Shown here in pieces: positions 8,008 through 11,902 of a stretch of 64,000 bases of DNA (positions are counted from its first letter, which is position 1; each line of letters starts with the position of its first letter). The stretch lies in contig NZ_OX458331.1 in the NCBI RefSeq assembly GCF_949769285.1, positions 1,302,001-1,366,000 of the forward strand. Direction: 5' to 3'. The notes beneath the pieces were generated by a model, which was given only the letters and a program-made list of their open reading frames with translations, ran no database searches and had not been told where the DNA came from. A program made the position numbers and the translations under genes. This stretch comes from Anaerococcus sp. Marseille-Q7828 (lineage in GTDB: Bacteria > Bacillota > Clostridia > Tissierellales > Peptoniphilaceae).

Positions 8008-9270
8008 ATGAAAACACTTATCAAAAATACATCAATCCTAGATATGCTTAGTCCTGATATTATCAATGGAGATATTTATATTGAAGATGATAAAATACTA
8101 GAAGTAGGGTATCTTGAGAACTTTAAGGCTGATAAAGTTATTGATGGTACAAACTTTCTAACTATGCCAGGCTTTGTCAACTGCCATACCCATGTTGCCA
8201 TGAGTTATTTTAGAAATTATGGCAATGATACTACTTTGATGACTTGGCTAAATGATTATATATTTCCCGTTGAAGAGAAGTTAAACGATGAGATTGTTTA
8301 CAATGCATCTATTTTATCTTTTGCTGAAATGATTAAATCTGGTACAACAAGTTTTGCTGATATGTACTTTTTTGAAGAGGCAACTATCAAAGCCTTGGAA
8401 ATAGGCAAATTGAGGGCACAAATCTCAAGGGGCCTATCTTCACCAGATTCAGGTGATTATAGAATTAATGAAAATATCAACTTGTTTAAAAATTATGATG
8501 GGAAAGATGATAGAATAGATATTGCCCTAGGACCTCATGCTGTATATACAATCGATAAGGATTATTTGAAAAAAATAGCAAGTATTGCGAGAGAATATAA
8601 AATGCCTATTCACATCCACTTATCAGAAACTAAATTTGAAAATGACCAGTGCATGAAAAAATATGGTCAAAGTCCAACAGAAGTATTCGATGAATGTGGA
8701 ATTTTCGATAATAGAACTATAGCAGCACATGGTGTATATCTAAGCGATGATGATCTAAAAATCTTAAGTGAAAAAAATGTTTCTATAGTTCATAATCCTA
8801 CAAGCAATCTAAAATTATCTTCAGGTATACTAGATGTTAATAGATTGATGGATGCTGGAATAAATGTGTGTTTAGGCACAGATTCAGCAGCAAGTAACAA
8901 CAAGCAATCAATGCTTAGAGAAATAGAAATGGCTGCTCTTTTAGCAAAATACCATTCTCCAGATGCTTTGAAAGCATTCGATATATTAAAGATGGCTACT
9001 GTTAATGGTGGAAAAGCCTTGGGACTTTTTGACCAAATAGCTAGTATAGAAAAAGGTAAGAAGGCTGATTTAATTTTGATTAATCTAGATAATATTAATC
9101 ACTTACCAAATAATGATATACTTAGCTCCGTTTGCTACTCAACTTATGAAGATGATATCAAGTACGTATTTATTGATGGAGACTTAGTCTTAGATAATGG
9201 TAACTTTGTATATCTTGATGAGGAACATATTAAATCAAAAGCAAAGAGTTTATCTAAGGAATTAATATGA
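8008..9270 (+). CDS. mtaD: amidohydrolase, MTA/SAH (or guanine-type) deaminase family
   Basis: This 420-residue metal-dependent hydrolase has the amidohydrolase layout: small beta domain, CHTHVAMS metal ligands (His60, His62), GPHAVYT, IHIHLSET with the third histidine, and the aspartate in GTDSAASNN. It most resembles 5-methylthioadenosine/S-adenosylhomocysteine deaminases, which convert MTA or SAH to the inosyl form. Related TRZ/ATZ enzymes deaminate other substrates, so specificity is not settled. The start lacks a good ribosome binding site: only GGA lies between the preceding terminator and the ATG. It overlaps the next gene by 4 nt (ATGA). Confidence 0.82.
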   Translation: MKTLIKNTSILDMLSPDIINGDIYIEDDKILEVGYLENFKADKVIDGTNFLTMPGFVNCHTHVAMSYFRNYGNDTTLMTWLNDYIFPVEEKLNDEIVYNASILSFAEMIKSGTTSFADMYFFEEATIKALEIGKLRAQISRGLSSPDSGDYRINENINLFKNYDGKDDRIDIALGPHAVYTIDKDYLKKIASIAREYKMPIHIHLSETKFENDQCMKKYGQSPTEVFDECGIFDNRTIAAHGVYLSDDDLKILSEKNVSIVHNPTSNLKLSSGILDVNRLMDAGINVCLGTDSAASNNKQSMLREIEMAALLAKYHSPDALKAFDILKMATVNGGKALGLFDQIASIEKGKKADLILINLDNINHLPNNDILSSVCYSTYEDDIKYVFIDGDLVLDNGNFVYLDEEHIKSKAKSLSKELI

Positions 9271-10445
9271 TTGGAGTGGATTTAGTTGATATCGACAAAT
9301 TTTCGTCGAAAAGCAATATCCGAAAGATTTTTACTGAAAATGAAATTTCTCATGCAGAAAGTAAAGTAAATACAAGTGAATCTTTGGCTGGAATTTTTGC
9401 GGCAAAAGAAGCTGTTATTAAGGCATTTGGCTTCAATCTATACTATATTTTAAGAAAGAAAATTGAGATAGTATATGAAAAATCAAAGCCTATTGCCTAT
9501 ATCAACGGACAAAAATCCATGGCAGATGTTTCCATAAGCCATGATGGTTCATATGCCATTGGCGTTTGTTCTACTAACATGCACAATATTCATATAATAG
9601 ATCAAGAAGTTAAAAATATTTTACCAAAAAGAAAATCTGATAGTCACAAAGGTACATATGGTAGAATTGGATTATTAGGTGGAAGTCCTGGTATGGCAGG
9701 ATCTATCTACATGGCTAGCCTTGCCACTTTAAGATCGGGTGCAGGTTTAACTTATATTCTTGCCCCAGAATCTATAGCAGACATTCTTGCAATAAAATCC
9801 AATGAACAGATAATAAAACAAATAGGCTGCTATAGTTTTTGCTACGACGATACTGTAAAAAAACAGATCTTATCAGCTAGTGAAAATTTGGATGTTCTAG
9901 CCATTGGCCCTGGTATGGGTCAAGCTCAGGATTTACATAGATTAATTGATGAAATTATCAATAATATCAATAAGAAATTTGTTATTGATGCTGATGGTAT
10001 CAATGCCATTAGCAAAGATTTAAATATATTAAACGCAAACAGGGAAATGATACTAACACCACATCTGGGAGAATTTGCCAGACTAAGTAAACTTTCGGTT
10101 GATGAAATAAAAAAAGATAAAATAAATCTAGCTAAAAATTTTGCAAAAACTTATAACGTAGTTTTGGTACTAAAAAGTAACCAAACAATTATAACAGATG
10201 GTGATAAACTATACATAAATAAAATTGGAAATTCTGGTATGGCAACAGCTGGAAGTGGAGATGTCTTGACAGGAATAATATCTTCACTTTTTAAAAGACT
10301 AGATGCCTATGAGGCAGCAGTTTTGGGAGTCTATATCCATTCTTTAGCTGGAGATTTAGCAGCTGACGATCTTGGAGAAGAATCTATTATTGCAAGCGAT
10401 ATTATAAATTATTTACCTGATGCATTTAAATTATTAAGGAATTAG
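9267..10445 (+). CDS. acpS/nnrD: fusion of holo-ACP synthase (AcpS) and NAD(P)H-hydrate dehydratase (NnrD)
   Basis: A 392-residue two-domain protein. Residues 1 to about 108 resemble AcpS, which attaches phosphopantetheine to acyl carrier protein: MIGVDLVDID with the Mg-binding Asp5, FTENEI, and FAAKEAVIKAFG with Glu48. Residues from about 125 are NnrD (CARKD, ribokinase-like), which repairs hydrated NAD(P)H with ADP or ATP: GRIGLLGGSPGMAGS, AIGPGMG, IDADGINAI, TPHLGEF and GSGDVLTG. The frame runs through the join without a stop. NnrD is usually fused to the NnrE epimerase, which is absent here. The AcpS part is a little short. Overlaps mtaD by 4 nt and lies one base before alr. Confidence 0.9.
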   Translation: MIGVDLVDIDKFSSKSNIRKIFTENEISHAESKVNTSESLAGIFAAKEAVIKAFGFNLYYILRKKIEIVYEKSKPIAYINGQKSMADVSISHDGSYAIGVCSTNMHNIHIIDQEVKNILPKRKSDSHKGTYGRIGLLGGSPGMAGSIYMASLATLRSGAGLTYILAPESIADILAIKSNEQIIKQIGCYSFCYDDTVKKQILSASENLDVLAIGPGMGQAQDLHRLIDEIINNINKKFVIDADGINAISKDLNILNANREMILTPHLGEFARLSKLSVDEIKKDKINLAKNFAKTYNVVLVLKSNQTIITDGDKLYINKIGNSGMATAGSGDVLTGIISSLFKRLDAYEAAVLGVYIHSLAGDLAADDLGEESIIASDIINYLPDAFKLLRN

Positions 10446-10446
10446 T

Positions 10447-11559
10447 ATGGAATCATATCTTAATGTAAATTTAGATTACATTGATAGAAATATAGAAAAT
10501 ATAAGAGCATTAAAACCCAACAAACTATTTTGTGCAGTACTCAAAGCGAATGCATATGGTCTAGGACTTGTTCCTATAGCTCAATCAATTGAAGACAAGG
10601 TTGACTATTTTGCAGTGGCAAGATTGGAAGAGGCAATTTGCCTTAGAAAGAGTGGTATAAAAAAACCGATCATGCTTTTAGGTTATATAGCCTACAATGA
10701 GGTTGATGAATGCATAAAATATGATGTAGACATCCCAATATATGACATTTCATATGCTAAAAAGATTAATGATAATATCAACAACAAAGTGAATGTACAT
10801 ATAGCTATTGATAGTGGTCACGGGCGATTGGGTTTTAGAGAAAATCAGATTGACGATATTTTAGCTTTGAAAAATCTAAACAACTTAAATATTATAGGCA
10901 TTTTTAGCCATTATTCGACAGCTGATGAAATAGATCTTACATTTACTAAATTACAAAATGAAAGATTTGAAAGAATCTTAACAAATACCAGTAAATATTT
11001 TGATTTTAAGTACATACATATAGAAAATAGTGCTGGAGCTCTAAAGATTAAAAGCCAAAGTAATATGATGAGAGTAGGGTTGGCTTTATATGGCTTATAT
11101 CCATCTATCGAAATGCAAAATAATGTTAAACTATATCAGTCATTTGAATTCAAAACACATATTTCATTTGTAAAGAATATAGAAAAAGGAATGCCAATTT
11201 CATATGGTCGTACATATATAACAGAAAAAAATATGCAAATTGCTACAATTCCTATTGGATATGCTGATGGTTTTTTGAGAGCTTTTTCCAATGTAGGGGA
11301 AGTTCTAATAAAGGGAAAGCTTTGCAGAGTTCTAGGTAGAGTATGTATGGACCAAATAATGGTTGATGTTACAGCTCTTGACGTAAATATTGATGATGAG
11401 GTTATAGTATATTCTGATATTTATGAAGAAGCTAATAAAATTAATACCATAAGCTATGAATTAATGACAGACATAGGTATGAGAATTCCACGTGTCTACA
11501 TAAAAAACGGTAAAGTAATAGATGTGATTAATTATTTAGGAGAAATCTATGAAAATTAA
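10447..11559 (+). CDS. alr: alanine racemase
   Basis: A 370-residue PLP enzyme making D-alanine for peptidoglycan. The N-terminal TIM barrel carries LKANAYGLG with the PLP lysine (Lys33), then a GHGRLGF segment and an IENSAGAL region. The C-terminal beta domain holds the second catalytic residue, tyrosine in ISYGRTY, and the LGRVCMDQIMVDVT signature. It is one base after the acpS/nnrD gene and overlaps mazF by 11 nt. The acpS, nnr, alr, mazF order echoes the Bacillus acpS-alr-ndoAI-ndoA region. Confidence 0.96.
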   Translation: MESYLNVNLDYIDRNIENIRALKPNKLFCAVLKANAYGLGLVPIAQSIEDKVDYFAVARLEEAICLRKSGIKKPIMLLGYIAYNEVDECIKYDVDIPIYDISYAKKINDNINNKVNVHIAIDSGHGRLGFRENQIDDILALKNLNNLNIIGIFSHYSTADEIDLTFTKLQNERFERILTNTSKYFDFKYIHIENSAGALKIKSQSNMMRVGLALYGLYPSIEMQNNVKLYQSFEFKTHISFVKNIEKGMPISYGRTYITEKNMQIATIPIGYADGFLRAFSNVGEVLIKGKLCRVLGRVCMDQIMVDVTALDVNIDDEVIVYSDIYEEANKINTISYELMTDIGMRIPRVYIKNGKVIDVINYLGEIYEN

Positions 11560-11902
11560 AAGAGGAGATTTATTCTATGCAGATTTATCTCCCGTGGTTG
11601 GCAGCGAGCAGGGGGGAGTAAGACCTGTAATTGTCGTACAAAATGATGTCGGCAATAAATATTCGCCAACTATTATAGTGGCTCCAATAACTAGTCAACT
11701 AAATAAGGCAAAACTTCCCACTCATGTGAAGATTAAGGGCAATGAATTTGGCCTGCCCAAAAATAGTGTAGCTCTTCTTGAGCAATTAAGAACAATAGAT
11801 AAGAGAAGGTTACGCGAAAAAATAGGAACATTTGATAACAATGTCATGGTAAAGATAAATGAAGCTATGGCTATATCATTAGATCTAATAAGTGATTATT
11901 AA
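11549..11902 (+). CDS. mazF: MazF/PemK-family endoribonuclease toxin (NdoA/EndoA type), no antitoxin gene beside it
   Basis: This 117-residue protein is close to NdoA of Bacillus, an mRNA interferase: KRGDLFYADLSPVVGSEQGG contains the catalytic Arg and the loop with the conserved Ser-Glu-Gln-Gly-Gly, followed by RPVIVVQND, VAPITSQ, LPTHV and LLEQLRTIDK. Length is typical. In Bacillus and most clostridia a ribbon-helix-helix antitoxin gene separates alr and the toxin gene; here alr and the toxin overlap by 11 nt and no antitoxin lies downstream either, where a terminator and the convergent murC follow. The ribosome binding site (AGGAGA) lies inside the end of alr. Confidence 0.95.
   Translation: MKIKRGDLFYADLSPVVGSEQGGVRPVIVVQNDVGNKYSPTIIVAPITSQLNKAKLPTHVKIKGNEFGLPKNSVALLEQLRTIDKRRLREKIGTFDNNVMVKINEAMAISLDLISDY

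Follow-up and report, generated by a model that had tools for sequence, protein, structure and literature searches.

The window analysed here is a stretch of 64,000 nucleotides, positions 1302001-1366000 of the single 1.95 Mb contig of Anaerococcus sp. Marseille-Q7828, a genome that is 98.9% complete. Its closest named relative, with 91% identity, is Anaerococcus provencensis, which NCBI assigns to the order Tissierellales. At 9267..10445 on the forward strand lies a single intact, ATG-started frame of 392 amino acids that carries an AcpS domain followed by an NnrD domain. The features of this gene and its neighbours are as follows.

8008..9270, + strand: amidohydrolase gene (PF01979, 240.4 bits), overlapping the start of the fusion by 4 bases
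9267..10445, + strand: acpS-nnrD fusion gene, one frame of 392 amino acids, intact in 29/31 genomes of the genus
9270..9569, + strand: AcpS domain, residues 2-101, with D5, E48, K52 and H92 (PF01648, 48.1 bits)
9570..9668, + strand: junction, residues 102-134, comprising the C-terminal end of AcpS and the N-terminal stretch of NnrD (from the His-KG distance; no YjeF_N match)
9669..10418, + strand: NnrD domain, residues 135-384, with GSGD at 329-332 (PF01256, 183.7 bits)
10447..11559, + strand: alr (alanine racemase) gene downstream of the fusion (PF01168 and PF00842); alr lies downstream in 54/66 fused loci
11549..11902, + strand: mazF/pemK-like gene (PF02452, 123.3 bits), overlapping the end of alr by 11 bases

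In the 392-residue protein the Pfam model ACPS (PF01648) scores 48.1 bits against a cut-off of 25, over profile positions 2-111 of 111, and Carb_kinase (PF01256) scores 183.7 bits against a cut-off of 27, over positions 2-241 of 242. Among the NCBIfam models, the broad AcpS model TIGR00556 (58.6 vs 45.35 bits) and the NnrD model TIGR00196 (225.2 vs 129.85 bits) are both satisfied, whereas the protein stays under the cut-offs of the narrow AcpS equivalog models, reaching 33.7 vs 59.8 bits for TIGR00516. These searches, including the domain check with both Pfam models that the sequence-only reading had proposed, bear out its description of one uninterrupted frame with AcpS followed by a complete NnrD. 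The YjeF_N (NnrE) domain has no Pfam match in the fused protein, which in this respect falls outside the bifunctional Nnr proteins. By sequence, the best solved chain for the NnrD part is TM0922 of T. maritima (E 1.1e-50); for the N-terminal part the hits are a subunit of a fatty acid synthase (E 2e-5) and AcpS chains (E 1.8e-4 and weaker).

The distance from the last His of AcpS to the KG motif of NnrD is 35-42 residues in 50 of the 64 fusions measured, a set from which L065 and L077, both fused, are absent because the search pattern missed them. Free AcpS proteins, which are 115-166 amino acids long in the loci examined (36 rows, the broken L058 piece apart), end 12-16 residues past the equivalent His in 26/34 cases, and NnrD-only proteins begin 13-33 residues ahead of KG in 8/10. 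The junction distance and the ends of the free proteins thus indicate that both fused domains are nearly whole, with no recognised NnrE remnant between them. A Shine-Dalgarno-like motif with a start codon occurs at the junction in only 9/66 fused loci, which does not support a conserved start for translating NnrD on its own.

AcpS is a trimer, and its Asp, Glu, Lys and His are presumably the residues of the metal and CoA site. In the fused proteins these residues (D5, E48, K52 and H92) are invariant in 66/66 loci, 28 of them from the own genus; among the 37 separate AcpS rows, the broken L058 piece included, Asp, Glu and Lys are kept in 37/37 and His in 36/37. In the NnrD domain G329, G331, D332, H266 and K303 are invariant in 65/65 fused and 19/19 classic rows, and N318 is present in 65/65 and 18/19, respectively; the GxGD motif and these conserved residues we take to be site residues. 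The residue sets exclude the duplicates L030, L051 and L001-L003, and the NnrD count also excludes L005. In 5/5 pairs of genus members, omega is 0.06-0.33 for AcpS and 0.13-0.29 for NnrD, which indicates purifying selection; for the linker codons it lies above that of either domain in 3/5 pairs.

The frame is kept in the two closest members of the genus, at 91% and 81% identity, and is intact in 29/31 genus genomes, the other two being G029, with a broken copy, and G022 (82% complete), with no match. Such identity, together with freedom from stops in 29/31 genomes, excludes chance or a frameshift error. In the family, 126/130 genomes have a match and 116 hold both domains in one open frame, a count that takes in G090, G092 and G094, each with two matches within one frame. 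The family exceptions comprise two adjacent genes in G053 and G054, separate genes in G105 and G107, one part only in G106 (AcpS), G060 (NnrD) and G080 (a piece of AcpS), a contig split in G063, the broken copy in G029 and one TAG in G061. The stop codons inside the fusion copies L058 (G029) and G061:C122:1826-3010 reflect either pseudogenes or assembly errors.

In the rest of the order the genes are fused in 77/119 genomes. A single genus, f14 g58, accounts for 25 of the 42 unfused genomes outside the family and has the genes separate wherever both are found; classic nnrE-nnrD occurs inside the order in G142, G143, G226 and G227. Altogether the fusion is present in 193/249 genomes and 18/19 families of the order and diverges down to about 35-40% identity; the fused counts were read by eye from the matches listed, and rows absent from the rest-of-order listing were looked up again. 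The survey of related genomes that the sequence-only reading had suggested therefore finds a fusion widespread in the order rather than a sequencing error, and we rule out a frameshift or assembly error. Outside the order, a stopless fused frame was not found among the matches listed in an even draw of 398 phylum genomes, three of them from this order. In G607 a TAA separates acpS from nnrD within a shared frame; the remaining NnrD rows from outside the order, among the matches listed, sit in frames of 505-600 amino acids, the size of nnrE-nnrD, with one of 975. Full-length coverage had hinted at a fusion in Omnitrophota, and these loci (L007 and L008) proved to hold two separate, adjacent or overlapping genes.

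The gene order in outgroups offers an origin for the fusion. Among 14 outgroup loci of the phylum with nnrE-nnrD, chosen by hand from the matches listed, 11 have an acpS that adjoins nnrE-nnrD or runs into its start, in keeping with the earlier statement that the two are often neighbours; of these 11, eight also have alr and six have mazF as well (L101, L105, L107, L109, L111 and L114). The three loci without acpS directly before nnrE-nnrD are L102, L108 and L112, and alr is nearby in 10/14. Of the classic loci within the order, the two examined (L085 and L099) have neither acpS nor alr alongside. Since acpS stands directly before nnrE-nnrD in most of the outgroup loci, the fusion can be read as what remains of this operon once nnrE departs. 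Unfused acpS directly before nnrD, with nnrE missing, is seen in the Omnitrophota loci L007 (2986-4226) and L008 (2986-4228) and in G607 (L100, 2977-4344), perhaps because nnrE was lost independently from this operon.

Downstream of the 66 fused loci, within the stretch read, alr is present in 54 and mazF in 64, and nine family loci have mazF without alr. In this window there is no antitoxin gene between alr and the mazF-like gene. None of the 54 mazF-holding family loci examined has an antitoxin match, several of these loci being duplicates of one genome, and a CopG-like (ribbon-helix-helix) antitoxin is found in 17/17 mazF-bearing loci from other families of the order and in 9/12 other loci. 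An orphan MazF, as judged at the mazF loci, seems to be fixed in the family.

The careful NnrD tree (72 rows), which omits 20 same-genus fused rows, L058 and then L062 and whose bootstrap had not quite settled, has a branch (support 97/84) that sets its fused rows, along with five unfused ones, apart from the rest. These five are L064, L117, L116, L118 and L119, and in a quick tree they lie inside the fused clade. The simplest reading of these sequences is that a single fusion was followed by later splits, and the split cases inside the clade are g6, g35, g10 and f18 g87; in g6, the end of acpS is followed by a gap of 1 base and by nnrD with a GGAGG ahead of its new ATG. The long-branched fused row L062 fell among the unfused rows in the quick tree and was omitted from the careful one. 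Between this genome and A. provencensis (L004), synonymous divergence across 9267-10445 is 0.81 in the AcpS part and 0.14 in the NnrD part, a contrast that looks like recombination within the gene.

The sequence-only reading described the gene as lacking the NnrE epimerase and attributed the fusion to a loss of nnrE from between its neighbours. The first statement holds for the fused gene and not for the genome: a YjeF_N search finds one gene, a standalone NnrE of 221 amino acids away from the fusion (L001, 1408-2073) and directly after an IstB/DnaA-type (DnaC/IstB-like) ATPase gene, and we therefore reject the idea that the genome is without an epimerase. As to the second, outgroup synteny supports the departure of nnrE from this position, but its outright loss is not borne out here, the genome still having the gene. 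Epimerization had been expected to be spontaneous or encoded elsewhere; in this genome it is encoded elsewhere, and the spontaneous route may apply to fused genomes in which NnrE was not found. An nnrE behind a DnaC/IstB-like ATPase gene also occurs in five other genera of the family (L128, L129, L130, L132 and L133). The own NnrE keeps most conserved positions, among them Lys189 (20/20 standalone and 18/18 classic rows); residue 127 is Glu here vs Asp in 18/18 classic and 19/20 standalone rows, and the epimerase activity of this protein may, to judge from Glu127, differ.

The standalone NnrEs of the order are placed in the NnrE tree with nnrE from the classic locus of G605 (84/95), a genome of the same class that retains acpS, nnrE-nnrD, alr and mazF together. 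Without G605, the standalone NnrEs are monophyletic in only 27% of bootstraps; this tree, the second built for NnrE, omits L009, L010, L011, L132 and L106. It favours, short of proof, a movement of nnrE within the lineage as the more likely course over its disappearance, and a transfer of the standalone NnrE is possible given the figure of 27%.

Across the order, YjeF_N is found in 131/249 genomes and in 106/192 good genomes; in the other 86 of the 192 this search found no NnrE. Among the 193 fused genomes, NnrE is found in 112 and not found in 81, some of these incomplete. A control genome of Lactococcus lactis likewise has a Carb_kinase match and no YjeF_N match. According to excerpts of a 2018 paper (PMC5938422), 168 genomes have only the dehydratase, epimerization proceeds spontaneously (half-time 40 minutes), and E. 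coli with a point mutation in the epimerase has normal total NAD(P)HX; as far as these excerpts go, the absence of NnrE is thus tolerable and known in principle.

The sequence-only reading would have been undone by a separate intact acpS plus nnrE-nnrD elsewhere, and neither a second acpS nor a classic nnrE-nnrD was found in the ACPS and Carb_kinase searches of the genome: there is one ACPS match, the fused protein, even at E<=10, and one Carb_kinase match. The genome also has one ACP (PF00550) match, a 74-residue protein with DSIDM, whose gene is flanked by genes for a PlsX-like protein (PF02504) and for RNase III; the 3.2 kb examined around acpP hold only these two neighbours, with no fatty-acid-elongation gene next to acpP. 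With a single ACPS match and a single ACP match, these searches offer no candidate for ACP activation other than the fused protein. An ACPS match occurs in 232/249 genomes of the order, exactly one in 193 and more than one in 39 by the table count; G016 and G026, the closest relatives, have more than one each, and the extra matches, among those listed, are often in frames of 230-270 amino acids. In G048 (family f1, g4; 99% complete) the frame is fused, yet there is no ACPS match at E<=0.001, and its AcpS half may be decaying.

Taken together, these data make it very probable that the gene encodes a working bifunctional enzyme with a single early origin by the departure of nnrE, and that a standalone nnrE was kept. 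The N-terminal domain would be the holo-ACP synthase, which passes the 4'-phosphopantetheine of CoA on to the one ACP of the genome, and the C-terminal domain would be the nucleotide-dependent dehydratase that converts (S)-NAD(P)H-hydrate to NAD(P)H. Both activities are expected of the fused protein from its conserved residues, and they are taken to be independent of each other; the fusion may bring a benefit. The single origin most likely lies in an early Tissierellales ancestor, in which the nnrE part would have left the ancestral acpS / nnrE-nnrD operon, presumably in one step by deletion or transposition, and placed acpS and nnrD in one frame. In the lineage of this genome nnrE would have survived as a standalone gene, and many relatives would have lost it later. 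Several observations weigh against this account: the scores under the cut-offs of the narrow AcpS models, G048 without an ACPS match, the placement of L062 in the quick tree, the outgroup loci L102, L108 and L112 and the classic loci L085 and L099 in which acpS does not directly precede nnrE-nnrD, the 27% of bootstraps for the standalone NnrEs, and Glu127 of the own NnrE.

Why the fusion has persisted is a question on which two further proposals bear, each compatible with this bifunctional enzyme of single origin. The better of them, to which we give slightly more than even chances, is a neutral collapse of the operon: nnrE left, both domains are needed separately, and the fused state persists as splitting is rare. 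Gene order by itself accounts for the partners, the fusion has been re-split within the fused clade (g6, g35, g10 and f18 g87), and the raised omega of the linker in 3/5 pairs also agrees with it. It fits less well with the retention of the fusion in 193/249 genomes through divergence to about 35-40% identity, or with the unfused acpS-nnrD pairs without nnrE in the two Omnitrophota loci and in G607.

Under the second proposal, AcpS and the dehydratase would profit from being one protein, for example because activated ACP feeds lipid synthesis, a large consumer of NADPH, or because the nucleotides bound by NnrD are substrates or products of AcpS. The persistence of the fusion and the recurrent adjacency of acpS and nnrD favour such a functional coupling. 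NnrD of T. maritima has reportedly been crystallised with CoA and 3',5'-ADP, and a review on AP4A describes complexes with AP4A. In the excerpted 2018 paper, acpS-nnr clusters occur in seven phyla and the authors propose NADPH use in lipid synthesis (PMC5938422). Against coupling stand the 3.2 kb around acpP, with a PlsX-like and an RNase III gene and no adjoining fatty-acid-elongation gene, and the repeated splits of the fusion, which suggest that a coupling of the activities is not essential; we regard it as rather doubtful. More speculative still, and improbable, is that the fusion is a regulated unit in which the dehydratase responds to adenine nucleotides or to the state of NAD(P)H, thereby setting the rate of ACP activation, or in which AcpS turnover steers repair. 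If true, this would explain the clustering of acpS with nnr genes in many phyla, and why NnrD is kept, tied to AcpS, where NnrE is gone.

A degenerate AcpS domain, with only NnrD at work, would account for the modest 48 bits, the scores under the cut-offs of the narrow AcpS models and the fused frame of G048 without an ACPS match; but the active-site residues are present in 66/66 loci, the domain is under purifying selection and it is the sole ACPS match in a genome that has an ACP, so that we consider this very improbable. An artefact joining two genes, for which nothing speaks in this window and only the broken copy of G029 in the genus, has practically no chance of being correct, the same frame in 29/31 genus and 193/249 order genomes having already refuted it.

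What is new in the fusion is the way in which two known enzymes are combined; the system itself is not of a new kind. Multidomain proteins of this sort are listed by automatic annotation. No description of an AcpS-NnrD fusion was found in searches of an open-access library that lacks most subscription journals. Like the bifunctional Nnr (YjeF, NnrE-NnrD), the fused protein has NnrD at its C-terminus with the same motifs, and alr is nearby in both (10/14 outgroup loci for Nnr); the N-terminal partner of Nnr is NnrE, whereas here it is AcpS, with NnrE as a separate gene. Free AcpS has the same active-site residues and occupies the same spot upstream of nnrE-nnrD in 11/14 outgroup loci, but the fusion bears in addition a complete C-terminal NnrD. 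The gene association is also that of the acpS-nnr clusters in seven phyla, whose significance is called unclear in the excerpts of the 2018 paper; those clusters consist of separate genes that include an epimerase-dehydratase fusion or a standalone epimerase, and the excerpts make no mention of an AcpS fusion (PMC5938422). Another parallel in the same excerpts is the plant NnrE-PPOX fusion, which also joins a repair enzyme to a non-repair enzyme; the plant protein contains the epimerase, the present one the dehydratase (PMC5938422).

According to the excerpts, clustering is unable to tell links of the epimerase from links of the dehydratase (PMC5938422). With NnrE and NnrD encoded by a single gene in nearly every case, a neighbour could belong to either. 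The Tissierellales separate the two: AcpS and the dehydratase are one protein, alr is mostly beside it, and the epimerase is elsewhere or not found. The fusion ties AcpS to the dehydratase and not to the epimerase, suggesting that the dehydratase is the partner of acpS; the presence of alr after the fusion in 54/66 loci is relevant to the suggestion that alr is linked to the epimerase. Both inferences are weakened by the inheritance of gene order and serve best as leads for assays. The fusion itself is no local oddity; it is old and spread over the order, and it provides many natural genomes in which the dehydratase is kept and the epimerase is not detected.
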